IMG/VR virus record: IMGVR_UViG_3300021225_000362
Coordinates: 1-64,000 of that record
Strand: one strand, 5' to 3'
From: a virus
Length of the DNA: 64,000 nt
The notes under the pieces are model-generated. The model saw nothing but the letters and a program-made list of their open reading frames with translations, was not told where the DNA came from and ran no database searches. The position numbers and the translations under genes are program-made. The stretch's first letter is position 1, and every line of letters begins with the position of its first letter. Positions 19,750-64,000 of this stretch are shown piece by piece.

Positions 19750-20343
19750 TTAGTTTATTATTTTGAAATTATGTTTATAACATGTTTTTCTTATAGAACC
19801 ATTATTATTTTTTCCATTATTAAGTTTTATACCTCTTAAACAATTAGATATTGTCATTCTTATATTACGCAATTTTCCATTTGCGAATCCCTTTTCTTTT
19901 AAATAAATCGCACCTTCAACTAAGCTATCAAAAATGTGTTCTTCATTTGTCTTAATGTTTATCAATGAATATTTTAAGAAATTACCGTTTTTATTAAGAT
20001 TATATTTGGATAATTGTATTTTTACTTCATTATTTAAATTATTTCTTCTGAAATCATTAACTAATGCTAAATTATAACCATAATCTTGAATGTTAGAATT
20101 ATAATGTTTTATATAATAGTTTTCTGTTTCTATCAACGATTCTTCATCACATTCTTCAATTACCTCAAATTTAAAATAATTTTTACCGAATTTATTGTAG
20201 GAATTTTGTAGATGTTTGTTATCATGTTTATTATTATTTAACATCCAAAAATGTTTATATTCCCTATTTTCCATATTTATAGAACTGCCAATATATTTTT
20301 TTTTGTCAAGTGTGTTTTCTATCATATAAACACCGCATCCCAT
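19750..20343 (-). CDS. GIY-YIG homing endonuclease
   Basis: 197 residues. The N-terminal GIY-YIG domain reads GVYMIENTLDKKKYIGSS (residues 4-21), with the conserved EHxxW-like REYKHFWML and a later IEECDEESLIETENYYI helix carrying the catalytic Glu region. The C-terminal part (SNCLRGIKLNNG) resembles a NUMOD-type DNA-binding tail. Free-standing endonucleases of this type spread within phage genomes by cutting alleles that lack them. It is probably a selfish gene inserted between the small Cys-rich gene and 20440. Confidence 0.85.
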   Translation of the reverse strand: MGCGVYMIENTLDKKKYIGSSINMENREYKHFWMLNNNKHDNKHLQNSYNKFGKNYFKFEVIEECDEESLIETENYYIKHYNSNIQDYGYNLALVNDFRRNNLNNEVKIQLSKYNLNKNGNFLKYSLINIKTNEEHIFDSLVEGAIYLKEKGFANGKLRNIRMTISNCLRGIKLNNGKNNNGSIRKTCYKHNFKIIN

Positions 20344-37544: not shown

Positions 37545-38675
37545 ATGACAGCGAATATTGTTTGTGGAACACAATGGGGAGATGAAGGTAAGGGCAGGGT
37601 CGTTAGTTGGTTGATAGATAGCAATGATTCAAGTAAGATTGTGGTGAGGTATTCAGGTGGTCACCAAGCAGGTCACACCGTCATTCATAATGGAATAAAA
37701 CATATTTTCTCAAATTTTGGTAGTGGATGTTTACAAAATGTTCCAACATATTTCAGTGAACACTGCACCGTATACCCGAATACTCTTTATAATGAATCTA
37801 AAATATTGCAAGCCAAAACCAATCAGGTGCACAAAATAATTGTGCATCCGTTGACTATGATAACCACACCATATGATGTGATTTATAACAGGGTCACAGA
37901 AATGAAGAACAGACATGGGAGTGTAGGTCTTGGTGTCGGTGCAACGATGAAAAGAAATATTGAAACTCCATACAAGTTATACGCTATTGATATTTTATAT
38001 CCCGAACTTTTCAAAGAAAAATTAAAACAAATATATCGTTATTATAGTAACATCCTTGGTGCATTGGAATTCTCTAACCTTTGTGTTTCTAAATTGGGTG
38101 ATTTGGATTTCAAATATGAAATAGAAAAGTTCCATGATATATTCACACAAAACATCATGATTGATGATTATTTATCTCTTGTTTTTTATGATGAAATCAT
38201 ATTTGAAGGTTCACAAGGTATTATGCTTGATATGGACCACGGAGTATTCCCAAATGTTACATATGGAAATACAACAACCAAGAATGCAATAAAAATATGT
38301 GAGAATATTCGTATTGATGAAATCAATAATTATTATGTGACTCGTTGTTATCAAACAAGACATGGTAATGGTTGGATGAGTAATGAACGTGAAATAAATC
38401 TAATCAATAACCATGAAGAAATAAATGTACAAAATCAATGGCAAGGTAATTTCAGAGTTGGTGAGTTTGATTTGAAACTATTCAATCATGCGTATTTGAT
38501 TGATAAAATTTATAATTCAAACATAAATAATGACAATTTAGTGGTGACATGTGTTGACCAAAGACCTGATTTAAAATTTAATGAACAATTCGGGGAAATA
38601 ATAAGAAAACACACAACAATAAAAAACATATACGAATCATTTTCACCTAACACACAAGACATAAGATTAATATGA
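37545..38675 (+). CDS. purA: Adenylosuccinate synthetase
   Basis: 376 residues from the ATG at 37545 (MTANIVCGTQWG); the longer frame from 37512 would start in the terminator. GTQWGDEGKG keeps the catalytic Asp and P-loop-like nucleotide site, YSGGHQAGHTVI holds the catalytic His, and FEGSQGIMLDMDHG and NVTYGNTTT follow. The family's Arg-rich C-terminal loop (TGRRRRTGW in bacterial PurA) is replaced by QGNFRVGEFDLKLF, and the protein is ~55 residues shorter than E. coli PurA. It converts IMP plus Asp to adenylosuccinate. The Asp-to-Ser change of Z-genome PurZ is absent. The next gene overlaps by 4 bases. Confidence 0.85.
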   Translation: MTANIVCGTQWGDEGKGRVVSWLIDSNDSSKIVVRYSGGHQAGHTVIHNGIKHIFSNFGSGCLQNVPTYFSEHCTVYPNTLYNESKILQAKTNQVHKIIVHPLTMITTPYDVIYNRVTEMKNRHGSVGLGVGATMKRNIETPYKLYAIDILYPELFKEKLKQIYRYYSNILGALEFSNLCVSKLGDLDFKYEIEKFHDIFTQNIMIDDYLSLVFYDEIIFEGSQGIMLDMDHGVFPNVTYGNTTTKNAIKICENIRIDEINNYYVTRCYQTRHGNGWMSNEREINLINNHEEINVQNQWQGNFRVGEFDLKLFNHAYLIDKIYNSNINNDNLVVTCVDQRPDLKFNEQFGEIIRKHTTIKNIYESFSPNTQDIRLI

Positions 38676-44788: not shown

Positions 44789-45181
44789 ATGAATACACCT
44801 GTAAGTTTTCCATTAGCAAAGTTGGTAAAAGAAAAAGGTTTTGATATACCCTGTACAGAAGGTTGGATAAACTATTTAACATCATTTACAGGAGAAACAG
44901 GAATGCCTGATGACGAATCTAATTTGGTTTTAGATAGATTAGGAAACCCCCATTTAATAGAAAGACCAACCATTGATGATGTAGTGATGTGGTTGTATGA
45001 GAAACACGGTATTTGGGTTTATCCAAGACCAGTTTTAGACGAAGATGGGGGATGGATTTTTAAAGGTTATGTAAAGCTTATGGCTAATTTTAAAGCCAAA
45101 GAAATTCAGACGAAACTAATGAGACAACCAACAGAAGCCTACGAAGCTGCTATTGAGTACACCCTAAATAATTTGATATGA
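44789..45181 (+). CDS. Paralog family member (MNTPVSFP / EKHGIW type)
   Basis: 130 residues. Opens MNTPVSFPLAKLVKEKGF and has TIDDVVMWLYEKHGIWVYP and PTEAYEAAIEYTLNNLI. The 45178 gene repeats the same frame of motifs, and 45607 shares the EKH and YEEAEHA parts. The family is typical of flavobacterial phages (inferred from memory). Function unknown. Confidence 0.65.
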   Translation: MNTPVSFPLAKLVKEKGFDIPCTEGWINYLTSFTGETGMPDDESNLVLDRLGNPHLIERPTIDDVVMWLYEKHGIWVYPRPVLDEDGGWIFKGYVKLMANFKAKEIQTKLMRQPTEAYEAAIEYTLNNLI

Positions 45182-45558
45182 ACACACCTGTAAGTTTCCC
45201 AATAGCTAAGTTGTTAAAAGAGAAAGAGTTTAATTTAAAAGTGATGAGCTTTTATGATTATGAAAGATTATCCACACCTTTTGATAAACAAAGACAATTG
45301 GATGGTTTAATTAATTATAACCCTATCAATTGGAATAGTACTAAAAACCACTATACATCAGCTCCAACTATAGCAGATGTAGTGATGTGGTTGTATAAGA
45401 ACCACAAAATATGGATTAGTGTTGACCCTGAGAATGACACTGACACATGGTTCCATACTATAACTCATGGGAAGTCTGTAACTGTTTTTGGTAATTACAG
45501 TTCATTGACAGAAGCATACGAAAAAGGTATTGAACATATATTAAATGAAATAATATGA
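45178..45558 (+). CDS. Paralog of the preceding gene
   Basis: 126 residues. MNTPVSFPIAKLLKEKEF start, TIADVVMWLYKNHKIWISV middle and TEAYEKGIEHILNEII end, aligned block by block with 44789-45181. The middle segments differ completely, suggesting duplication followed by rapid change. 4-base overlap with its neighbour. Confidence 0.65.
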   Translation: MNTPVSFPIAKLLKEKEFNLKVMSFYDYERLSTPFDKQRQLDGLINYNPINWNSTKNHYTSAPTIADVVMWLYKNHKIWISVDPENDTDTWFHTITHGKSVTVFGNYSSLTEAYEKGIEHILNEII

Positions 45559-45971: not shown

Positions 45972-46895
45972 ATGATAGGCATTTATAAAATCACATCACC
46001 CTCAGGTAGAGTTTATATTGGACAGTCAAAAAACTTGGAAAGAAGAAAAAGAGATTACGAAAAATATATTAAAAATTCTAATAGACAAGTAAAGTTATTA
46101 GCCTCTTTAAACAAATATGGATGGGAAAATCATACATTTGAAATTATTGAAGAATGTAATTTTGATGATTTGAACAAATGTGAAAGATATTGGCAAGAGT
46201 TTTATGATTCTATAGAAAATGGTCTAAATTGCATATACACTAAAACTGAAAATAAACCAGCACAATTTAGCGAAACTTCAAAATTAAAAATGAAACAATC
46301 TAGAATCGGTAAAAAAGCTTCTGAGGAAACTAAAAAGAAAATGTCTGAATCTAGAAAAGGGTATAAATTTTCAGAAGATATTAAAAAGAAAATGTCTGAA
46401 ATTAAAATATCAAAAAGGCCTCCGCATTTTAAAATAAAAACACACAACAAAAAAAATTATAAGTCAATATCGTGTATTTCTAATGATAACATACTATACG
46501 AATTTGAAAGTATTAAAGATGCCGCTAAAAAAATTGGGGTAACAAGTTCAGCTATTTACAATGTTTTATATAAGTCCATAACAGGTAAGGTAAAAGGATG
46601 GCATAGTTTTAAAATGCTAAAACCAAATGAAAAGTATTTAGCCAATTTAGATATTATAAAACAAGGTAAGCCTAAAATATCTGAATTATGTAAGAAAATA
46701 TCGGCAGCTAATTGTAAGAGATTATTTAGTAAGCGAATAATTCAGTATGATAAATCAATGAATGTTGTCGCTGAATATGAATCGTTATCAGAAGCATCTA
46801 GACAAACAAATATAAATGCACAAAACATATCCGCAGTTTGTTTAGGTAAAAATAAATCAGCAGGTGGATATAAATGGGAGTATAAAACTAATTGA
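45972..46895 (+). CDS. GIY-YIG homing endonuclease with NUMOD repeats
   Basis: 307 residues. GIYKITSPSGRVYIGQSKNL is the GIY-YIG core, with the catalytic Arg/Glu region KNLERRKRDYEKY...IIEECNFDDLNKCERYW. Then NUMOD3-like repeats follow (ETSKLKMKQSRIGKKASEETKKKM and SEDIKKKMSEI), and two NUMOD1-type helix-turn-helix units (FESIKDAAKKIGVTSSAIYNVL, YESLSEASRQTNINAQNISAV). A full-length homing enzyme, more complete than the one at 19750. It sits in the accessory region between unrelated genes. Confidence 0.9.
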   Translation: MIGIYKITSPSGRVYIGQSKNLERRKRDYEKYIKNSNRQVKLLASLNKYGWENHTFEIIEECNFDDLNKCERYWQEFYDSIENGLNCIYTKTENKPAQFSETSKLKMKQSRIGKKASEETKKKMSESRKGYKFSEDIKKKMSEIKISKRPPHFKIKTHNKKNYKSISCISNDNILYEFESIKDAAKKIGVTSSAIYNVLYKSITGKVKGWHSFKMLKPNEKYLANLDIIKQGKPKISELCKKISAANCKRLFSKRIIQYDKSMNVVAEYESLSEASRQTNINAQNISAVCLGKNKSAGGYKWEYKTN

Positions 46896-54417: not shown

Positions 54418-54610
54418 TGTAAAAGAAAAATTACCAAACGTTGAACATGGAAGTTTTTTGGTTTACGCACCAAAAAGTTTTCCAAAAAACAGTCGTTGGT
54501 TAGTGGCAGAATATTACGATGACGTTAAAGGATTTTATAGTGAATCGTCTGAAAATTTTTTAGATGATGTGACACATTGGACAACACTTCCTGATGAACC
54601 AATAAATTAA
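54398..54610 (+). CDS. DUF551-like protein
   Basis: 70 residues. SVKEKLPNVEHGSFLVYAP ... VAEYYDDVKGFYS ... DVTHWTTLPDEP. The start/strand/HWxxLPxxP pattern matches the DUF551 group found widely in phages. Function unknown. Confidence 0.7.
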   Translation: MAQQIFSVKEKLPNVEHGSFLVYAPKSFPKNSRWLVAEYYDDVKGFYSESSENFLDDVTHWTTLPDEPIN

Positions 54611-54618
54611 ATATACAC

Positions 54619-54942
54619 ATGGCACAACAAAAACTATACACAGAAGAGCAAGTACTTGGGTTTCTTAATTTTTATGAATCTGCAAATCCAAGAGAGTATG
54701 GTGGTTACCAACACCCAACTATGGATGGGTCAGAACGCTTACATAACAACCAAACAACTAAGAATATACTCAACGCATATACAAATAGTATAACTCCAAT
54801 AGAACTACCAAGTGATGAGGAGATAAATGAATTTTCGCCATACGTTCCTCAAGATGCAAGTATAGATTTTTGGGCAAACAAAGAGGGTTTTATTGAAGGT
54901 GCTAAGTGGTTGAGAGATAAAATACAAGGAGGTAACAAATGA
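54619..54942 (+). CDS. Conserved-type phage protein
   Basis: 107 residues. YTEEQVLGFLNFYESA, ITPIELPSDEEINEFSPYV and EGFIEGAKWLRDKIQ, a pattern shared by many Bacteroidota phage hypotheticals. No function known. 4-base overlap with the next gene. Confidence 0.55.
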   Translation: MAQQKLYTEEQVLGFLNFYESANPREYGGYQHPTMDGSERLHNNQTTKNILNAYTNSITPIELPSDEEINEFSPYVPQDASIDFWANKEGFIEGAKWLRDKIQGGNK

Positions 54943-55211
54943 ACAATATTCAAAGTAGCGATGACTACATGGAATCAGTAGCCGAAGAATTAAGACTTAA
55001 CGGAGTTGAAAAGGTAGTAGTGAATGGAGGCACAATAAATGTAATGTCATTAGGTGTTTCAATGCGTTATGATTATATTTACAAACCAGATGTAATGTCT
55101 GATGTTTATAGATGTTTGAGTAATTTAGGGCTAAAAATACACAATGAACATTTAAATAATAAATTGCATTCATTAAAATCTTTTGAACAATTGCAAATAC
55201 TAAACAAATAA
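54939..55211 (+). CDS. Uncharacterised protein
   Basis: 90 residues. SVAEELRLNGVEKVVVNGGTINVMSLGVSMRYDYI. Alpha/beta; no family recognised. It precedes the TAVEW gene array. Confidence 0.5.
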   Translation: MNNIQSSDDYMESVAEELRLNGVEKVVVNGGTINVMSLGVSMRYDYIYKPDVMSDVYRCLSNLGLKIHNEHLNNKLHSLKSFEQLQILNK

Positions 55212-55212
55212 C

Positions 55213-55449
55213 ATGGCACAGCAAACGGCAGTTGAATGGTTATACAGTCATTTATTCCCTAAACAATTGGATGGATTTAGTGATGAAGAATGGGGTAAAA
55301 TTGATAAAGCATTTGAACAAGCCAAAAAAATTGAGAAGGAGCAGATAAAAAAATCATGGTTTGATTCTACTTTACAGTTTGACAATGCAGCAAGTATTGA
55401 TAAAAAAGAATTTGAACAATACTACAACGAAACATATGGAACAGAATAA
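55213..55449 (+). CDS. TAVEW-module protein 1
   Basis: 78 residues. QTAVEWLYSHLFPKQLDG ... FEQAKKIEKEQIKKSWFDS ... FEQYYNETYG. This three-block layout (TAVEW, QAKxMExEQ, YYNxTYG) recurs in the next four genes. It is characteristic of flavobacterial phage hypotheticals; function unknown. Confidence 0.65.
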   Translation: MAQQTAVEWLYSHLFPKQLDGFSDEEWGKIDKAFEQAKKIEKEQIKKSWFDSTLQFDNAASIDKKEFEQYYNETYGTE

Positions 55450-55450
55450 C

Positions 55451-55696
55451 ATGACAGCTGTTGAATGGTTTTTTGAAGTATTGGCACACAATGATATTAT
55501 TGACCATAAAAGGCTTTGTGTTGATGAAAACCTTTATAATCTATTGTACTCATTGAAAAACCAAGCAAAACAAATGGAGAGAGAGCAGCACAATGAAACA
55601 TGGTTAACTGCTCAAGAAGAAAGTTTACATGAAAATTATTTTGGTAGGTCAAGACTATTTTTAGAATATTTCAAAGAAACATATGAACGAAAATAA
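55451..55696 (+). CDS. TAVEW-module protein 2
   Basis: 81 residues from the ATG at 55451 (MTAVEWFFEVLA); an upstream in-frame ATG at 55361 lies inside the previous gene and is rejected. KNQAKQMEREQHNETW and YFKETYER give the other two blocks. Confidence 0.65.
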   Translation: MTAVEWFFEVLAHNDIIDHKRLCVDENLYNLLYSLKNQAKQMEREQHNETWLTAQEESLHENYFGRSRLFLEYFKETYERK

Positions 55697-55913
55697 ACAG
55701 CAAACAGCAATGAATGAACTTTTGGTGTGGGTTCGGAAAACTTTACCAATGGACTTGGATTATCCAAGGATGATTGAAGATAAGATTGAATCATTAATAC
55801 CAAAAGAGAAGGAGCAGATATGCGATGCTTTTGACAAAGGGAAATGGGATACAATGGCTTTTAAAGGAACATTAAAAGAACAATACTACAATCAAACTTA
55901 TGGCACAGACTAA
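55683..55913 (+). CDS. TAVEW-module protein 3 (diverged)
   Basis: 76 residues. QQTAMNELLVWVRKTLP replaces TAVEW; IPKEKEQICDAFDKGKW and YYNQTYGTD keep the other blocks. Overlaps both neighbours by 14 bases. Confidence 0.6.
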   Translation: MNENKQQTAMNELLVWVRKTLPMDLDYPRMIEDKIESLIPKEKEQICDAFDKGKWDTMAFKGTLKEQYYNQTYGTD

Positions 55914-56361
55914 CATGACGGCAGTTGAATGGTATGCTAAAGAACACCACAAACTTTTGATTCAACTGGAGAATAAGGAATTAAGTTTAGGAGCATATGT
56001 TGTAAAGCACTCTGATATTCTAAAACAAGCCAAACAAATGGAGGCAGAACAAAAGAAACTGCTTACAGAAATAATGGAAGCAGACCAAAAAAGTGGGTTG
56101 TATGAAGACCATATTGGTGACACCAACAAAATGGTCACGGCAGTTGAATGGTTCATAGATGCAATTACAGAAAGTGGTCATCTGTGGATGACAGATAAGC
56201 CAAACGATATGTTAGAGCTTGCTAAATTTATTGAACAAGCCAAACAAATGGAGAAGAGGCAAATAGTAAAAGCATATAATGCATATTACAGCGAAAAAAC
56301 GTTTATAGATGGGGATTATCTGAAAGGAGAAGAGTATTATAATCAAACATATGGAAAATAA
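55900..56361 (+). CDS. TAVEW-module protein 4, internally duplicated
   Basis: 153 residues, two modules in one chain: NMTAVEWYAKEHHKLL...QAKQMEAEQ, then MVTAVEWFIDAITE...QAKQMEKRQ...YYNQTYGK. The second module carries its own Met and could be the fusion of two once-separate genes, because the stop and start between them have been lost. Confidence 0.65.
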   Translation: MAQTNMTAVEWYAKEHHKLLIQLENKELSLGAYVVKHSDILKQAKQMEAEQKKLLTEIMEADQKSGLYEDHIGDTNKMVTAVEWFIDAITESGHLWMTDKPNDMLELAKFIEQAKQMEKRQIVKAYNAYYSEKTFIDGDYLKGEEYYNQTYGK

Positions 56362-56803
56362 GCAGACGGCAGTAGAATGGTTTGCAAAAGAGATAAACAA
56401 TATGAATGTTTCAAGAGAAGCAACATTGTTTATTAATAAATTAAAGGACCAAGCCAAAAAAATGGAGTATGAACAAAACAAAGTCACTGAAGATACTTCA
56501 GATGGTTACCATACATTCAAGGAACTCTATGATTTCCGCATGCTTTACAATGCTGCACTCTTTAATGAATGGGCATTGCAAAACAAATATGAAGTTCATA
56601 AGAGTTGGTTACATCATGATGGTGAACTCTGTCTTGGTGGCGGTTGGTTCATTGTTGTGGCAATATTACCAACAGGACAAATAAGTAATCACTATAGTGC
56701 AGAATATTGGGATTTGTTCAAGATTCCTGAAACAGTAAAAGCATTGTATCCTTTTGACGGACATACTTCACAAGACGTTTTAAACAGATTGAAAAATTTA
56801 TGA
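56351..56803 (+). CDS. TAVEW module fused to a WDGH-like domain
   Basis: 150 residues. Residues 1-~40 are a TAVEW module (KQTAVEWFAKEINN ... DQAKKMEYEQ). Residues ~50-150 match the phage WDGH-type domain: DGYHTFKELYDFRMLYNAAL, KSWLHHDGELCLGGGWFIV, and FDGHTSQDVLNRL at the end. The domain is common in phages, without known activity. 4-base overlap with the next gene. Confidence 0.72.
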   Translation: MENKQTAVEWFAKEINNMNVSREATLFINKLKDQAKKMEYEQNKVTEDTSDGYHTFKELYDFRMLYNAALFNEWALQNKYEVHKSWLHHDGELCLGGGWFIVVAILPTGQISNHYSAEYWDLFKIPETVKALYPFDGHTSQDVLNRLKNL

Positions 56804-57368: not shown

Positions 57369-58178
57369 ATGAAAGTAAACATGGAAAGTTTGCTCAAAGA
57401 GCAAAAACAGAAAGACCAAGCGATTCTGAACAGCGACCCTGTTAAGGATGTGAAACTTCTTTTAGAGGGAGATTCACAGGAAGACCTCAGAATCCTTCGT
57501 AATCTATCCAATTCATCGCAATTGTCTCAGGTTGAAACAATTAGGGGGAGACAGATTGAGTTGGAGAATTTGGAGAAAAATTATGTGGGTGATGTCTATA
57601 CCATTGACCAAATTAAAAAATTGTGTATAGATTATCATTTGAGATTTCTCTCATCAAATTTATACACAGGTTCATTTGATGTAGAACTTACTTCAAAGTT
57701 GAAACAATTTTCAGCAGATGCGAAAGTTGAGTTGAATGAATGGAACTTAAAGAATAAGTTCTTCATTATGGCTCCGCAAGAAATGTTTCAATTAAGAGAT
57801 GAAAAATATCTCACAAAGAGACAATTGGACCCTGTTATCTTTTATAAAATTAATGACACCCATTACAGAATGGTTCACAAGTGGGGCAATGATTTTACCA
57901 TTTTCAGATTGATTGATGGTTTCAGGTGGAAATCATGGTGGAATTATCAATTATTCAATACATTCATGTTAATGCCGATTTTTGGGTTAATCATTGGTTT
58001 GTTTTCCGATATTCATGATATAACACACCGTACAATCCTCATACCAACATTAATCACGATTTTTTCATTTATTTCAGCTTATTTCATTTTTGCTTTCGAA
58101 AAACATGATGAAGGTGAAGAAATTCATGGATTTTTCAGCAATAACAATTGGTGTTCAGAATCAAAATTAAAAAGATAA
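57369..58178 (+). CDS. Membrane protein with two C-terminal helices
   Basis: 269 residues. The first ~185 are soluble and charged (LLKEQKQKDQAILNSDPVKDVKLLLEGD), with a DEKYLTKRQLDPVIFYKI block. Then FMLMPIFGLIIGLF and ILIPTLITIFSFISAYFIFAF form a membrane hairpin, and EKHDEGEEIHGFFS ends it. Similar two-helix C-termini occur in phage proteins that sit in the host membrane. More C-ending codons than neighbours. Confidence 0.6.
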   Translation: MKVNMESLLKEQKQKDQAILNSDPVKDVKLLLEGDSQEDLRILRNLSNSSQLSQVETIRGRQIELENLEKNYVGDVYTIDQIKKLCIDYHLRFLSSNLYTGSFDVELTSKLKQFSADAKVELNEWNLKNKFFIMAPQEMFQLRDEKYLTKRQLDPVIFYKINDTHYRMVHKWGNDFTIFRLIDGFRWKSWWNYQLFNTFMLMPIFGLIIGLFSDIHDITHRTILIPTLITIFSFISAYFIFAFEKHDEGEEIHGFFSNNNWCSESKLKR

Positions 58179-58915: not shown

Positions 58916-59089
58916 ATGAATAATCATTTTTCACCACATTTTAATTTATTCTTTGATGAATTGGGTTCAGAGGTGACAACAACATATGAAATCGTTAATA
59001 CAGATAATATATTTGATAAAGTTGTTAATACTGTCATAAGAGAGGAGTTTGCACAATTGGGTACGGAAATAACACGAATTAATAGATGA
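58916..59089 (+). CDS. Array protein 1
   Basis: 57 residues, MNNHFSPHFNLFFDELG start and FAQLGTEITRINR end. First recognisable member; overlaps the next by 4 bases. Confidence 0.6.
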   Translation: MNNHFSPHFNLFFDELGSEVTTTYEIVNTDNIFDKVVNTVIREEFAQLGTEITRINR

Positions 59090-59286
59090 AAAATAAAAAA
59101 TATAAAATGGAATCATTTGTTAGATATTTTTACGGAATCAACCCAAGAGTAGAAAACGAAAAACATATTAACGAAAAACAATTTATACGTGCATTTGATA
59201 ATTTTAATAATGAATATAATACATTAAGTGATTTAAATATAGAAATAAAACGACTAACAGATGACATTAATAAGAGACGACATTGA
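59086..59286 (+). CDS. Array protein 2
   Basis: 66 residues, FDNFNNEYNTLSDLNIEIKRL as the C-terminal helix block. It has a longer basic N-terminus (MKNKKYKM) than most members. Confidence 0.6.
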   Translation: MKNKKYKMESFVRYFYGINPRVENEKHINEKQFIRAFDNFNNEYNTLSDLNIEIKRLTDDINKRRH

Positions 59287-59431
59287 AAAATTCTTTTTAG
59301 AGTTTTTTCAGAACAAACATCAATCATCAATGGACGAAATGTTTATTGATGATTTTGAATTTTTATACAATGATTTATCAGATATGTCAACTGAAATTGA
59401 CATCATATTAGACAATCGAATTTATGAATGA
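59261..59431 (+). CDS. Array protein 3
   Basis: 56 residues, MTLIRDDIEKFFLEFF start, YNDLSDMSTEIDIIL end. It starts 26 bases inside the previous gene and overlaps the next by 8 (ATGAATGA). Confidence 0.55.
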   Translation: MTLIRDDIEKFFLEFFQNKHQSSMDEMFIDDFEFLYNDLSDMSTEIDIILDNRIYE

Positions 59432-59612
59432 ACACATTGACATGGAAGGACTTATTGAGAATAATATGCCATTTATAGACAGCACATCAGAAAGAGAATT
59501 AACTTATAATATGGTGATGTTGTTTATGAAAAATGATAAAGAAAGAGTGATGAGGTGGAGATTAAATGCGGAATTTCGTGATATAGAAACAGAAATAACC
59601 AATTTAATATGA
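59424..59612 (+). CDS. Array protein 4
   Basis: 62 residues, MNEHIDMEGLIENNMPFID start, RLNAEFRDIETEITNLI end. 4-base overlap with the next gene. Confidence 0.6.
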   Translation: MNEHIDMEGLIENNMPFIDSTSERELTYNMVMLFMKNDKERVMRWRLNAEFRDIETEITNLI

Positions 59613-59818
59613 GTATGTTATTTAATTTTAAACTATCATTACATAATTTTGATATTGATGTAAAATCAGATAGATTTTTACTTTATGATAGAACTTTGAA
59701 TAATGCATACAATGATGTTTTTGATGAACTCGTTGAATTGGAGGATGAAATTGGTCAGTTTGGGATAAAAATGAATCAAAAATCAGTTGGAAAAAAATTT
59801 TCGTTGGAAAATTCATGA
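59609..59818 (+). CDS. Array protein 5
   Basis: 69 residues, NNAYNDVFDELVELEDEI helix, followed by a basic tail (MNQKSVGKKF) unusual for the array. Confidence 0.55.
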   Translation: MSMLFNFKLSLHNFDIDVKSDRFLLYDRTLNNAYNDVFDELVELEDEIGQFGIKMNQKSVGKKFSLENS

Positions 59819-59985
59819 AACACATAAAACTTGATGAAGAATTTTTTGAACCTCATAGTGAATTTACTACTATGTTAGTGTCATTAAATGGGGTTACAAA
59901 TACAAACATAAGGACAAATGAAGAAACAGAAGAATTTTTTACTGTAATTATGGAATTACATAGTTTAATAAATAGTTTATCGTAA
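59815..59985 (+). CDS. Array protein 6
   Basis: 56 residues, found by hand: MKHIKLDEEFFEPH start, FFTVIMELHSLINSLS end. Next start 2 bases later. Confidence 0.55.
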   Translation: MKHIKLDEEFFEPHSEFTTMLVSLNGVTNTNIRTNEETEEFFTVIMELHSLINSLS

Positions 59986-59987
59986 AC

Positions 59988-60176
59988 ATGGAATATCAAG
60001 AACAGAGAAATGACGCAGAATTTTGGCGTTCTCATTATGAATTAAAAGAATCAATCAATAACTATTTATATGATTTTTTTATTAGTACAAATGAAAATTC
60101 ATTTAATGACCAATTTCCTGAATTTAGGCGTTTAGAATTAGAAATATCATACTTTCTATCAAAAAAACATCCATGA
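59988..60176 (+). CDS. Array protein 7
   Basis: 62 residues, QFPEFRRLELEISYFLSKK gives the EI helix block. 4-base overlap downstream. Confidence 0.55.
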   Translation: MEYQEQRNDAEFWRSHYELKESINNYLYDFFISTNENSFNDQFPEFRRLELEISYFLSKKHP

Positions 60177-60388
60177 CCAAAATTACTGAAGAATTATCAG
60201 AATCAATGAATTCGGTAATCATCAGACCAATACATGATGAACTGATTTATTTTAAAATAAGTAATAATATTATTCTTCGTGACTCAGATTGGAATGAATT
60301 ATTTAATATAATGGAAGATTTAAAAATACAGACAGATGAATTATTTATGGATGAAAAAATAAAATCAATTTTGAATGCGAATAGATAA
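60173..60388 (+). CDS. Array protein 8
   Basis: 71 residues, the longest of the array. WNELFNIMEDLKIQTDELF helix, then KIKSILNANR. 14-base overlap downstream. Confidence 0.55.
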   Translation: MTKITEELSESMNSVIIRPIHDELIYFKISNNIILRDSDWNELFNIMEDLKIQTDELFMDEKIKSILNANR

Positions 60389-60560
60389 GACATTTATTGA
60401 CATAAATCGTTTTGATAATTTTATCGTTGACCATCTACAAATTTTTATGAAAACCAATTCTGATATTTTTAACAATGATGTTTTTCAATCATTTACAAAT
60501 TTGTGCGTTGATTTTAGGGAACTTCGAAGTGAAAATGATAATTTAATACCCAATGTTTAA
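60375..60560 (+). CDS. Array protein 9
   Basis: 61 residues, MRIDKTFIDINRFDNFIVD start, VDFRELRSENDNLI end. 8-base overlap downstream. Confidence 0.55.
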   Translation: MRIDKTFIDINRFDNFIVDHLQIFMKTNSDIFNNDVFQSFTNLCVDFRELRSENDNLIPNV

Positions 60561-60741
60561 AAATAATAGTGAAGACTTTCAAGTGTTTTATACCTCATTT
60601 ATTAAAGAATTAGAATATAATATAGGTTGTGGTATGCGTAATGGATTGACAATAGAAATCGATAACAATTTTCAAACCAATGAAATGTATGAAGGTTTAT
60701 ACAGTGAAATTAATGATTTAATTAATGAAGAAATGAAATAA
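60553..60741 (+). CDS. Array protein 10
   Basis: 62 residues, FKNNSEDFQVFYTSFIKEL start, EGLYSEINDLINEEMK end. One of the few members followed by a small gap (11 bases). Confidence 0.6.
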   Translation: MFKNNSEDFQVFYTSFIKELEYNIGCGMRNGLTIEIDNNFQTNEMYEGLYSEINDLINEEMK

Positions 60742-60752
60742 AATCCATTTAT

Positions 60753-60932
60753 ATGAAAAATTCAAGGTCAATACATTCAACATTGATTAATTTCGATAAC
60801 AAACTATATTATGGAATACAAAATTATATTCATTTAGAAATAGATTGGGAATTACACAAGAAAATTAATGAAATTTTAAATATTGATTTGGAACCATTGC
60901 AAGATTTGTTGGATGATTTAATAGATTATTAA
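60753..60932 (+). CDS. Array protein 11
   Basis: 59 residues, found by hand: MKNSRSIHSTLINFDN start, LEPLQDLLDDLIDY end. A 25-base gap follows, the largest in the array. Confidence 0.55.
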   Translation: MKNSRSIHSTLINFDNKLYYGIQNYIHLEIDWELHKKINEILNIDLEPLQDLLDDLIDY

Positions 60933-60957
60933 TCAGATATAAAAATTTGAAAAAACT

Positions 60958-61155
60958 ATGTACAATTCTATCTTACGTGACATTACACAGAAGTTGTTTG
61001 AAACAATGACAAACCCAAAACATAAAGAAATTGAATCTATTGCGTACACAATTAAAAGATATGTTGAATTAAAACGAGATTTATATGTTTCTCCTGATTC
61101 AGAAATGGATGAATTAACCGATGCAATTGATGAACTATACAAAATCAAAAAATGA
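60958..61155 (+). CDS. Array protein 12
   Basis: 65 residues, MYNSILRDITQKLFETM start, SEMDELTDAIDELYKIKK end. More basic N-terminal half than other members. Confidence 0.55.
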   Translation: MYNSILRDITQKLFETMTNPKHKEIESIAYTIKRYVELKRDLYVSPDSEMDELTDAIDELYKIKK

Positions 61156-61331
61156 ATAACAGATTTTCAATACATCACTCAATAAATACATTTGACACCG
61201 ATTTTTTTAGAAAAGGGAATTTCGTCCCAATTTACGAAGACGATGTTATGAATAAAGTAAAAGAAGAAATGTCGATGTTAGATTTTCATCCATTGGATGA
61301 TGAAATAGACAAATTTATTGACCATGAATAA
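61152..61331 (+). CDS. Array protein 13
   Basis: 59 residues, found by hand: MNNRFSIHHSINTFDTDFF start, LDDEIDKFIDHE end. The end overlaps the next start by 8 bases (ATGAATAA). Confidence 0.6.
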   Translation: MNNRFSIHHSINTFDTDFFRKGNFVPIYEDDVMNKVKEEMSMLDFHPLDDEIDKFIDHE

Positions 61332-61482
61332 TAAAATTTACTTACCGTTGACGGAAAAAATGTTCTATTTTGGTACGAATCACACAATCTTGAATCAAAC
61401 TAATGATTCTTGGTGGACATTACGTATGGAAATTGAATCAGATTTAAAAAGAGAAATAACAAACCTCATTTATTATGAATAA
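61324..61482 (+). CDS. Array protein 14
   Basis: 52 residues, shortest complete member, found by hand: MNNKIYLPLTEKMFYFG start, RMEIESDLKREITNLI end. ATGAATAA junctions on both sides. Confidence 0.6.
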   Translation: MNNKIYLPLTEKMFYFGTNHTILNQTNDSWWTLRMEIESDLKREITNLIYYE

Positions 61483-61657
61483 AAAAATTAACATAAAAGA
61501 ATTCAATTTTAATGAAATAATTTATTCAGAAGAAGAAATTAAAGAAATTCATTTTTTAGTTCAAGAAATTTATTTACCATATTACCAACCAATTTTTTTT
61601 GAAGCAAATTTTTTGAAACGTGAAATCAATTTTTTGGCATATAGACAAGAAAATTAA
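61475..61657 (+). CDS. Array protein 15
   Basis: 60 residues, MNKKINIKEFNFNEIIYSEEE start, NFLKREINFLAYRQEN end. Confidence 0.6.
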   Translation: MNKKINIKEFNFNEIIYSEEEIKEIHFLVQEIYLPYYQPIFFEANFLKREINFLAYRQEN

Positions 61658-61802
61658 ACTCGAAGTCGTGTTGTATTTACCTGATGAACCTATAGATACA
61701 GAAGTAACACAGATTTTATCGGAAGATTTTTATGAAGCGGATAATTTGTTCTTTCAATTAGAACGACAAATCGAAAACATCATTCATGAACAAAAAAATT
61801 GA
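61620..61802 (+). CDS. Array protein 16, start codon unclear
   Basis: 60 residues if it starts at the GTG at 61620. The place where the ATG of other members would be expected (61641) reads ATA-GAC-AAG-AAA, so the ancestral start may have been lost. Ends FQLERQIENIIHEQKN. Confidence 0.45.
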   Translation: MKSIFWHIDKKIKLEVVLYLPDEPIDTEVTQILSEDFYEADNLFFQLERQIENIIHEQKN

Positions 61803-61986
61803 CCTGAATCCGCCACTAATAGGTGAAGTTATTGGGTTTATGAATGGAATACACGATATACACTTCATATTAGATTTTGATTTACATTCCGCATTGTATT
61901 TTAATTTATTTTCTTATTCTTTAGAAATACATAGACTGAGAGATAACATAAATGAAATTATCGATGAACAAGGAAATTATAAATAA
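61786..61986 (+). CDS. Array protein 17
   Basis: 66 residues, MNKKIDLNPPLIGEVIGF start, LEIHRLRDNINEIIDEQ near the end; 17-base overlap with the previous gene. Confidence 0.6.
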   Translation: MNKKIDLNPPLIGEVIGFMNGIHDIHFILDFDLHSALYFNLFSYSLEIHRLRDNINEIIDEQGNYK

Positions 61987-62134
61987 AGTTGCGATGAAAT
62001 TACATCATTCTTTAAATTCTGAATTAACAATCAATACGGATTTAATTTTGTTATATGGTGAATTTTATTCCAAATCTTCGATTGAAATAAATGAATTGAA
62101 ATCTGAAATAAATGATTTTATCGATGAACAATAA
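61964..62134 (+). CDS. Array protein 18
   Basis: 56 residues from ATGAACAAG at 61964 (MNKEIINKVAMKLHH); an in-frame ATG at 61952 is possible. SKSSIEINELKSEINDFIDEQ end. 11-base ATGAACAATAA junction downstream. Confidence 0.6.
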   Translation: MNKEIINKVAMKLHHSLNSELTINTDLILLYGEFYSKSSIEINELKSEINDFIDEQ

Positions 62135-62288
62135 AATTGAATTGGATAATGAGAAGTATGATGATTTATGCGATGTCACGTCTGAATCAATTAAGGAAGA
62201 TGTATATCTTAAATTATGTCTCGATTTTAACTTCGAACTGATGGAAATTAAAAATTTCACAACCTTTTACATAAACCATGAACAATAA
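62124..62288 (+). CDS. Array protein 19
   Basis: 54 residues, found by hand: MNNKIELDNEKYDDLCDV start, FYINHEQ end. Both ends are ATGAACAATAA junctions. Confidence 0.6.
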   Translation: MNNKIELDNEKYDDLCDVTSESIKEDVYLKLCLDFNFELMEIKNFTTFYINHEQ

Positions 62289-62448
62289 AATTAAAATTAA
62301 ACTCAAACAGATAAACGATATATTCTATCTAAATAAAGATGTGGAAGAATTAATACAATTGATAACTGTATATGGGTTTGAAAATAATTTAAATTTTGAA
62401 ATCCATGAAATTACCGACCAAATAAATGTTCTTTGTGGTGAACAATAA
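62278..62448 (+). CDS. Array protein 20
   Basis: 56 residues, found by hand: MNNKIKIKLKQINDIFYL start, EIHEITDQINVLCGEQ end. Confidence 0.6.
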   Translation: MNNKIKIKLKQINDIFYLNKDVEELIQLITVYGFENNLNFEIHEITDQINVLCGEQ

Positions 62449-62623
62449 TAAAATATCACTTTTTGAACCTGTACATAAAAATTTTAATTTGGATATCAAT
62501 CCCATATATAATGATTCTTTTGATGTTACGTTATATCTTGGATTACATGACGAACTTAAATTTACAATTGAGACAGAATTCAATCAATTAAATGTTGAAA
62601 TAGATGAAATACAAAAAATGTGA
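62438..62623 (+). CDS. Array protein 21, GTG start
   Basis: 61 residues if started at GTGAACAATAATAAA (62438), the array junction with G for A; an ATG 12 bases upstream is in frame. INPIYNDSFDVTLYLGLHDEL matches the NPFDxLL block of later members. Confidence 0.55.
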   Translation: MNNNKISLFEPVHKNFNLDINPIYNDSFDVTLYLGLHDELKFTIETEFNQLNVEIDEIQKM

Positions 62624-62771
62624 AATAGATGAAAAAATTCTGTTTGAATTGTTTTCTTATGATACCCATGAATATATACAATGGTTATGTATTCCTAAGT
62701 TATTTTTCCAATTAAGAGTACCAATTGAATTGGAATTTATGAATTTAAAATCTCAAATAGATGGATTATAA
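62604..62771 (+). CDS. Array protein 22
   Basis: 55 residues, found by hand: MKYKKCEIDEKILFEL start. QLRVPIELEFMNLKSQI closely matches QLREPTEMEYMELESEI in the next gene. Confidence 0.6.
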   Translation: MKYKKCEIDEKILFELFSYDTHEYIQWLCIPKLFFQLRVPIELEFMNLKSQIDGL

Positions 62772-62949
62772 TAAATGCAGATTCAATAAAAATAAGTTGA
62801 AAGAATTTGTATCTTTCGATATCAATACTTGGATACATTGGGTGCTTCCTTATCAAATATTTAACCAATTAAGAGAACCAACGGAAATGGAATATATGGA
62901 ATTGGAATCTGAAATAAACGTCTTTTGTAAAAAACAAATCAATGAATAA
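62761..62949 (+). CDS. Array protein 23
   Basis: 62 residues, MDYNKCRFNKNKLKEF start, FNQLREPTEMEYMELESEI end block; close paralog of member 22. Confidence 0.6.
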   Translation: MDYNKCRFNKNKLKEFVSFDINTWIHWVLPYQIFNQLREPTEMEYMELESEINVFCKKQINE

Positions 62950-63103
62950 GAGAATTGATTTAACGGATATACGACTGAATCATTTTGCACTTGAAATTGT
63001 TATCACATTTGAAGTGTGGTGTGAATTGAATGAATTACTATACGAGATGATTTTTAATGAATTAAAAGAAATTGAAGAACAAATCGATGAACAACAAAAT
63101 TGA
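62942..63103 (+). CDS. Array protein 24
   Basis: 53 residues, found by hand: MNKRIDLTDIRLNHFAL start, NELKEIEEQIDEQQN end. Confidence 0.6.
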   Translation: MNKRIDLTDIRLNHFALEIVITFEVWCELNELLYEMIFNELKEIEEQIDEQQN

Positions 63104-63272
63104 ACCACATTTTTTCATGAACACATATAGTTTATCTCCAATAGAAGACTATAATACCGAAAGATTATTTGATGAACTTTACGAATCACAAAATCAAGGG
63201 ATACACAGAGAATTCCATGAACTATATTTCGAAATAAAAAATATCTCCAATGAACAAATCATTTATCAATAG
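63087..63272 (+). CDS. Array protein 25
   Basis: 61 residues from ATGAACAACAAA (63087); a TTG at 63072 is less likely. SPIEDYNTERLFDELYESQ and HELYFEIKNISNEQ blocks. Confidence 0.6.
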   Translation: MNNKIEPHFFMNTYSLSPIEDYNTERLFDELYESQNQGIHREFHELYFEIKNISNEQIIYQ

Positions 63273-63426
63273 TTCATCCACCATTATATTTGAGTCACTT
63301 CACACAGAACTAAATGAAAATTTAAATTTAGATTTATATATTAACTTACATCTTAAATTGAAAAGTCAATTAGAATTAAATACCAGACAACTAAATTTTG
63401 AAATAAAAGAAATCTGCAATGAATAA
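63250..63426 (+). CDS. Array protein 26
   Basis: 58 residues, found by hand: MNKSFINSSSTIIFESL start, LNFEIKEICNE end, 8-base ATGAATAA junction downstream. Confidence 0.6.
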   Translation: MNKSFINSSSTIIFESLHTELNENLNLDLYINLHLKLKSQLELNTRQLNFEIKEICNE

Positions 63427-63595
63427 TAATACACGTTTACAATTCTTGGAAAAATTACCATTCTTTACACCAACCATAGACAACCCTTTTGACCTACTAT
63501 TATTCCAAGAACTACATGTATCAATGAATCAAACAACAAATAAAGAAATGAATGAATTATGTTTCGCCATAAAACAAGTTATCAATGAACAATAA
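63419..63595 (+). CDS. Array protein 27
   Basis: 58 residues, found by hand. IDNPFDLLLFQELHVSMNQ gives the NPFD block; ends MNELCFAIKQVINEQ. Start of the strictly 166-base-spaced part. Confidence 0.65.
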   Translation: MNNNTRLQFLEKLPFFTPTIDNPFDLLLFQELHVSMNQTTNKEMNELCFAIKQVINEQ

Positions 63596-63761
63596 TATAC
63601 GTTCAGAATTCTCGGAAAAAGTATTAACCATGACACCACATTACAAAAACCCTTTTGACGATTTATTACACAAAGAACTATATGTATCCCTAATTCAAAC
63701 AACAACTACAGAAATGATAGAATTACAATATACAATAAAAGAAATCTGCAATGAACAGTAA
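63585..63761 (+). CDS. Array protein 28
   Basis: 58 residues, found by hand. KNPFDDLLHKELYVSLIQ block and LQYTIKEICNEQ end. Same length as its two neighbours. Confidence 0.65.
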   Translation: MNNNIRSEFSEKVLTMTPHYKNPFDDLLHKELYVSLIQTTTTEMIELQYTIKEICNEQ

Positions 63762-63927
63762 ATTAATGGAAGACTTGAAAGAAAATATACCAGACTTTAC
63801 ATCAAACATCGAAAACCCTTTTGACAATTTATTATTTGATAATCTATATTTCACATTAAGACAAAGAGTTATCTGGGAAATGAATCAATTAGAAACCACC
63901 ATAACAAGAATCACCAATGAACAATAA
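63751..63927 (+). CDS. Array protein 29
   Basis: 58 residues, found by hand. IENPFDNLLFDNLYFTLRQ block and TITRITNEQ end. Net acidic (10 Asp/Glu versus 5 Lys/Arg). Confidence 0.65.
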   Translation: MNSKLMEDLKENIPDFTSNIENPFDNLLFDNLYFTLRQRVIWEMNQLETTITRITNEQ

Positions 63928-64000
63928 GTTAAATTTAACCAAATTACATGATAACTTATATACCAATTTATTTCACAAAGATATATTCCCAGAAGACCTC
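63917..64000 (+). CDS. Array protein 30 (3' end outside window)
   Basis: 28 codons visible, MNNKLNLTKLHDNLYTNLF. Begins in an ATGAACAATAA junction, so the array continues past the window. Confidence 0.6.
   Translation, partial: MNNKLNLTKLHDNLYTNLFHKDIFPEDL

Follow-up and report, generated by a model that had tools for sequence, protein, structure and literature searches.

The first 64,000 nucleotides (nt) of IMG/VR virus record IMGVR_UViG_3300021225_000362, whose full length is 79,457 bases, carry at their right end a chain of mostly overlapping small genes (the window, below, is this 64,000-nt stretch). We found that these genes form an orphan family with 34 copies in one virus, which is a real and unusual feature, and that they descend from a single small gene through serial duplication. 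The layout and origin of the array are well supported; from these and from the protein properties we infer its function, and our tentative reading is a translation-coupled repertoire, grown by serial duplication, of small helical binders that are mostly acidic and probably host-directed.

An earlier note on this DNA had described about 30 tiny overlapping plus-strand open reading frames (ORFs) of 52-71 codons and expected the array to be prolonged past the window. Both points were confirmed when the contig was read further, though the prolongation is merely about 0.9 kb. In the parent record, the array spans 58,916-64,916 (+). It consists of 34 intact ORFs, each 52-71 codons long, together with a single decayed copy, and all of them lie on the plus strand. 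The window holds 29 complete ORFs and a thirtieth, m30, truncated by the window end; beyond it follow, in order, the rest of m30, m31, the decayed copy and m32-m34, with the array ending at 64,916. The members are as follows, with protein lengths in amino acids (aa):

Whole array: 58916..64000 within the window (to 64,916 in the parent record), plus strand
m01: 58916..59089, plus strand, 57 aa; first member
m02: 59086..59286, plus strand, 66 aa; sole basic member (+4)
m03: 59261..59431, plus strand, 56 aa; relatedness weak
m04: 59424..59612, plus strand, 62 aa
m05: 59609..59818, plus strand, 69 aa
m06: 59815..59985, plus strand, 56 aa; relatedness weak
m07: 59988..60176, plus strand, 62 aa
m08: 60173..60388, plus strand, 71 aa; relatedness weak
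m09: 60375..60560, plus strand, 61 aa
m10: 60553..60741, plus strand, 62 aa
m11: 60753..60932, plus strand, 59 aa
m12: 60958..61155, plus strand, 65 aa; top match of the right-half (m13-m34) profile, 29.0 bits
m13: 61152..61331, plus strand, 59 aa; start-to-start steps all 1 mod 3 from here through m31
m14: 61324..61482, plus strand, 52 aa
m15: 61475..61657, plus strand, 60 aa
m16: 61641..61802, plus strand; ancestral start now ATA (or GTG at 61,620)
m17: 61786..61986, plus strand, 66 aa
m18: 61964..62134, plus strand, 56 aa; alternative start 61,952
m19: 62124..62288, plus strand, 54 aa; 11-nt junction ATGAACAATAA at 62124-62134
m20: 62278..62448, plus strand, 56 aa; junction ATGAACAATAA at 62278-62288
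m21: 62438..62623, plus strand, 61 aa; GTG start, ATG at 62,426
m22: 62604..62771, plus strand, 55 aa; QLRxPxExE pair with m23
m23: 62761..62949, plus strand, 62 aa; QLRxPxExE pair with m22
m24: 62942..63103, plus strand, 53 aa
m25: 63087..63272, plus strand, 61 aa
m26: 63250..63426, plus strand, 58 aa
m27: 63419..63595, plus strand, 58 aa; NPFD subgroup
m28: 63585..63761, plus strand, 58 aa; NPFD subgroup; modelled with AlphaFold2
m29: 63751..63927, plus strand, 58 aa; NPFD subgroup
m30: 63917..64,090 (window part 63917..64000), plus strand, 57 aa
m31: 64080-64259, plus strand, past the window end
Decayed copy: about 64242-64390, plus strand; ATG at 64,242; MNQIDDKPNTEHIIKEI-stop-SVLNYIDNDTQKILVNMILNEIVDIKLDIDA; resembles m33
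m32: 64385-64555, plus strand, past the window end
m33: 64567-64725, plus strand, past the window end
m34: 64737-64916, plus strand, last member

The number of reading frames is far above that expected by chance. ORFs of at least 52 codons number 34 on the plus strand of the array against 7 on its minus strand, and 200 second-order Markov shuffles of the array gave a mean of 2.6 and a maximum of 8. The codon-position composition is typical of genes, with guanine-plus-cytosine fractions of 0.36/0.19/0.23 at the three positions. One member departs from the pattern: at 61,641, m16 has ATA where its paralogues carry ATG, with the frame otherwise open, and it may be unexpressed or started elsewhere (GTG at 61,620).

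The earlier note had named a lack of similarity between members as its own refutation; in profile tests run on this point, the members proved to be related. With leave-one-out profiles, at most 2 of 300 shuffles of a member scored as well as the member itself for 23 of the 34, and at most 5 did so for 29. A profile built from m13-m34 ranked m01-m12 at positions 1, 2, 3, 4, 6, 8, 9, 12, 13, 15, 28 and 35 among 303 proteins, namely these twelve and 291 other ORFs of the same phage. Taken individually, m03, m06 and m08 fell below significance in their similarity to the family, and the whole-array profile found no match in its own genome outside the array at E values up to 10. The motifs reported previously are present, NPFDxLLxxxLY in m27-29 and QLRxPxExE in m22-23, as is a common C-terminal block with the signature [ED]-h-x-[ED]-L-x-x-E-I-x-x-[IL]. 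Anchored on the most conserved I (position 0), this signature places [ED] at -8, h at -7, [ED] at -5, L at -4, E at -1 and [IL] at 3 in both halves of the array, and its residues are still present in the most diverged members. Conservation does increase toward the right end. The right half alone has extra leucines at -23, -19 and -15, and between these and the second block lies a more polar segment containing some prolines.

The proposed origin by repeated local duplication is likewise borne out. Similarity is higher between members at most two places apart than between other pairs, and none of 5000 permutations reached the observed value. At the DNA level, the closest copies are m27/28 (74% over 174 nt), m27/29 and m22/23; most member pairs have no significant pairwise match. 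In comparisons of four close pairs with a simple counting method, the ratio of nonsynonymous to synonymous substitution rates (dN/dS) was 0.79 for m27/28, 0.77 for m28/29, 0.96 for m27/29 and 0.75 for m22/23 (compared ungapped), in line with the relaxed or fast divergence that had been suggested. Under neutral substitution, the log10 probability of keeping every one of the 34 frames open ranges from -15 to -34. The individual residues are under weak constraint, and staying a protein of this kind is under strong constraint.

The junctions between genes indicate how the units may have been copied. Successive genes overlap at 28 of the 33 junctions by 4 to 26 nt, counting m16 from its ancestral start. 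In the right block, the commonest junction is an 11-nt overlap, ATGAACAATAA or a near variant, in which the upstream gene reads GAA CAA TAA (E, Q, stop) and the downstream gene ATG AAC AAT (M, N, N); the remaining junctions have overlaps of 4, 8, 14, 17, 20, 23 or 26 nt, and a few have none. From m13 to m31, all 18 successive start-to-start steps are 1 mod 3 despite step lengths of 145-181 bases, presumably because units with the same stop/start overlap were copied whole and later insertions and deletions were kept in frame. Since the next start site sits in the tail of the preceding gene, each duplicated unit carries its own start site. In the other genes of this phage, the region 9-13 nt before the start is enriched in adenine (67% A at -13, 82% at -12), and in m13-m31 the positions -13/-12 are 84% A. 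Flavobacterium johnsoniae has no Shine-Dalgarno sites, and its translation initiation is promoted by A at -12 and -13 (PMC6847099); the pattern upstream of the phage starts seems similar and points to initiation without a Shine-Dalgarno site. At a typical junction, the A-rich -12/-13 positions coincide with the codon that follows the conserved I near the end of the upstream gene, and part of the apparent tail conservation is therefore a start signal for the next gene. However, E(-8) and L(-4) sit further from the next start, about 40 and 28 nt upstream of it, and their conservation extends to the left half, where the junctions differ; the protein sequence itself is therefore selected.

Members range from 52 to 71 aa and from -11 to +4 in net charge, and they have no membrane-like segment (top 19-residue hydropathy 1.25). 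The family is mostly acidic, as the earlier note had it, with a net charge averaging -5.0, whereas the phage's remaining small ORFs average -1.2 per 58 aa (P = 3e-6). The idea that the products mimic DNA was not supported: the acid fraction (D+E) is 18% against 15% in the other small ORFs and m02 has a net charge of +4, although the criterion of a strongly acidic surface was judged here on composition, not on the surface. The AlphaFold2 model of m28 (mean predicted local distance difference test score, pLDDT, 82.9) has helices at residues 3-14 and 23-57, that is, one long C-terminal helix, and the model of m01 has a helix at residues 29-56 and an N-terminal half of low confidence. By eye, the hydrophobic spacing in the right half suggests a helical hairpin, whereas AlphaFold2 gives a single long helix in both m28 and m01. 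Foldseek searches against BFVD and PDB returned no match at E 0.001 or better, and a PDB profile search gave weak matches alone, mostly to long helical segments. No member had a convincing match in PADLOC (which covers defence systems, not counter-defence), PHROGs or Pfam, and the proteins match no known family, as had been claimed.

Relatives of the array were not found elsewhere. In 50,697 phage records, no relative emerged from blastn with the locus or from tblastn with almost every member, and searches with single proteins and subgroups found nothing in viral contigs or in bacterial and archaeal genome contigs. A triple junction pattern likewise found nothing in viral contigs; there, the triple spaced signature pattern matched once, in part of a long repeat-containing protein, and its 29 matches in bacterial and archaeal genomes included no array and no profile match. 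Against 35 related phage records, the best whole-array profile matches had E values of 0.005 to 0.04 and fell within long unrelated frames, indicating that the family is absent from them. The records nearest the source may lie outside the searched sets, so close sister strains are possible, and the pattern searches are insensitive to distant relatives. Paper searches confined to an open-access library, from which many journals are absent, found no description of a phage array with this layout.

The minus-strand neighbours of the array have relatives. On the 3' side, the array is followed by a low-coding stretch with terminator-like hairpins and then by a convergent minus-strand operon up to the record end, which includes a ParB-like gene (68,382-69,140), a DUF932 gene and others. 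The ParB-like gene matches viral contigs of up to 311 kb with 24-63% identity, several of them with other genes of the operon nearby. At the equivalent place, the relatives examined carry unrelated small genes and no tandem families, as expected for an accessory region with fast turnover. On the left flank, the gene at 57369-58178 had no relative in these searches.

Taken together, the reading that we tentatively favour is the host-directed repertoire, because the proteins are small and mostly negative, lie in a long run of small accessory genes, are absent from relatives, and diverge fast with their frames kept. Recombination between the short junction repeats would add or remove whole units, and each new unit would arrive ready for termination-reinitiation, so that the set could be lengthened and diversified at little cost. 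The products, perhaps made from a long rightward accessory operon, may be soluble helical binders with a variable N-terminal half and a long C-terminal helix or helical hairpin, and separate copies might bind different or fast-changing host proteins such as defence components. Counter-defence would be the most familiar case of such host-directed binders. A more specific version, which we regard as possible but doubtful, is that the array is a self-extending repertoire generator: a 160-170 bp cassette whose junction serves at once as protein end, next start and recombination homology, with unequal exchange adding freely diverging binders against host defences.

Several points weigh against the host-directed repertoire. 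Binding, anti-defence activity and expression of the members are presumed, and none of the members matches a known counter-defence family in the PADLOC, PHROGs and Pfam scans. The confident model is of one right-hand member (m28), whereas that of the left-hand m01 is poor except for its C-terminal helix. The C-terminal conservation is in part (the A-rich codon after I) common with the start region of the next gene. The dN/dS values derive from four close pairs alone, by simple counting, and being near but below 1 they are equally consistent with relaxation or with diversification. Finally, the array was seen in one genome only, and gain or loss of units between strains was not seen.

The main functional rival, which we consider unlikely, is that the members are subunits of one heteromeric assembly, with coupled translation keeping similar helical subunits in step and the conserved C-terminal helix mediating their packing. 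In E. coli, complex subunits are 4.5-fold overrepresented among gene pairs that overlap or lie close (-8 to +10 nt; PMC10666635), and most of the 33 junctions here overlap; a long helix with 3-4 spaced hydrophobics would also suit packing. On the other hand, dense gene packing is general in this phage region, and the lengths, N-terminal halves and charges of the members vary widely. Moreover, one copy is broken, one lacks its ATG and dN/dS is high, whereas stronger conservation would be expected of the parts of a fixed complex. The same broken copy (near 64,242-64,390), the lost start of m16 and the dN/dS of 0.75-0.96 would fit the main evolutionary rival, a gene-accordion relic: amplification of an ancestral small gene for dosage would have been followed by loss of selection, leaving the copies to drift under weak constraint with a redundant function or none. 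We give this explanation a similarly low probability: with as few as 15 substitutions per gene, neutral drift would leave all 34 frames open with a probability of about 1e-15 or less, the signature is kept in the most diverged members, and idle DNA is lost from compact genomes.

A repertoire that is specifically antitoxin-like, or acts as decoys, against host toxin-antitoxin or abortive-infection systems is less probable still. Small size and amplification do parallel tifA of T4, which encodes an 85-aa ToxN inhibitor (PMC9391042), but neither a sequence nor a fold match was obtained, and TifA homologues have a central cluster of positive residues (PMC9391042) whereas the array family is acidic. 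We strongly disfavour the view that the repeats function at the DNA or RNA level, with the reading frames arising as a by-product. Short DNA repeats do occur at the junctions, but a 901-nt stretch of the array was no better structured as RNA than its shuffles (z = 0.41), an Rfam search of the array matched no family, the frames and their codon-position composition are those of genes, and the steps are constant modulo 3 although their lengths vary.

Genes of a SPO1-type host-takeover cluster are not known to form one paralogous family, while in the array one family fills the run. The likeness to that cluster lies in the density of small accessory genes within a phage genome (26 genes; PMC6873191, PMC8208478). 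T4 amplifies tifA at microhomologies of 6-10 bp (PMC9391042), and homing endonucleases can drive amplification, as does SegB in T6 (PMC13096335). The array resembles these cases in having tandem small phage genes, short homology at many junctions (in the right block, repeats about 11 nt long, between which recombination would have occurred) and homing-endonuclease-like genes in the genome. However, the T4 and T6 amplifications arose in experiments and repeat one locus, a dmd-tifA or tRNA-Tyr segment (PMC9391042, PMC13096335), whereas the array consists of 34 strongly diverged single-gene units. Two GIY-YIG endonuclease genes lie in the window, at 19,750-20,343 (-) and 45,972-46,895 (+), the second with NUMOD domains, and both are candidate homing endonucleases. 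Stop/start overlap with coupled translation is established in other prokaryotes (PMC6728339, PMC10666635), and as in those overlapping pairs, translation of one array gene may feed the next. The usual overlap in pairs is 4 or 1 nt, sometimes 8, while the right block of the array most often has 11 nt, and about 30 genes are linked in succession.

Phage DNA-mimic inhibitors such as SPO1 Gp44 (PMC8208478) are also small acidic proteins, but the array family is only moderately acidic, includes a basic member and has no sequence or fold similarity to them that we could find. The ribbon-helix-helix fold (MetJ/Arc/CopG) was considered for the spacing of residues, since some members have a vaguely similar hydrophobic spacing and the lengths are alike, and was rejected at the sequence level. 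PF01402 had no match in the genome at E up to 10, with 14 of 14 control genomes positive; the single Arc match (E 0.1) covers residues 4-21 of m18 only, outside the signature. The array thus lacks an RHH_1 match, and its models are one long helix; the monomer models of m28 and m01 contain no strand, although the strand of a ribbon-helix-helix dimer cannot appear in a monomer model.

Other features of the record are also worth noting. At 65,670-65,981 of the record, adjoining the last minus-strand gene, six imperfect tandem copies of a unit with TCTGAATATTCTTTGGCA recur at 46-48 bp spacing and are possibly binding sites or an origin-like element. Upstream of the array, a second small-gene family, unrelated to it, occupies 54,600-56,800 of the window: its proteins carry a TAVEWF...QAKxMExEQ pattern (genes at 55361, 55900 and 56351; the first two 34% identical), and related contigs (L016, L043) encode similar proteins. 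A tandem paralogue pair at 44,789-45,558 begins with MNTPVSFPxAKLxKEK and is 36% identical. The protein at the left edge (3-1,367) has a long GSSGTSG-rich repeat and adjoins genes that by eye are glycosyltransferase-like and methyltransferase-like. In addition, an adenylosuccinate synthetase gene at 37,548-38,675 (PF00709, E 2e-50) possibly serves nucleotide modification.

An orphan family in a 34-copy array within one virus is unusual even without a known function. As a naturally occurring run of some 30 overlapping genes, whose starts seemingly lack Shine-Dalgarno sites as in Bacteroidota, it makes termination-reinitiation directly testable. Should the repertoire reading be true, it would illustrate how a phage can produce novel small proteins in large numbers through copying of a single coupled gene unit, and candidate inhibitors of bacterial targets could be drawn directly from the members of the array.

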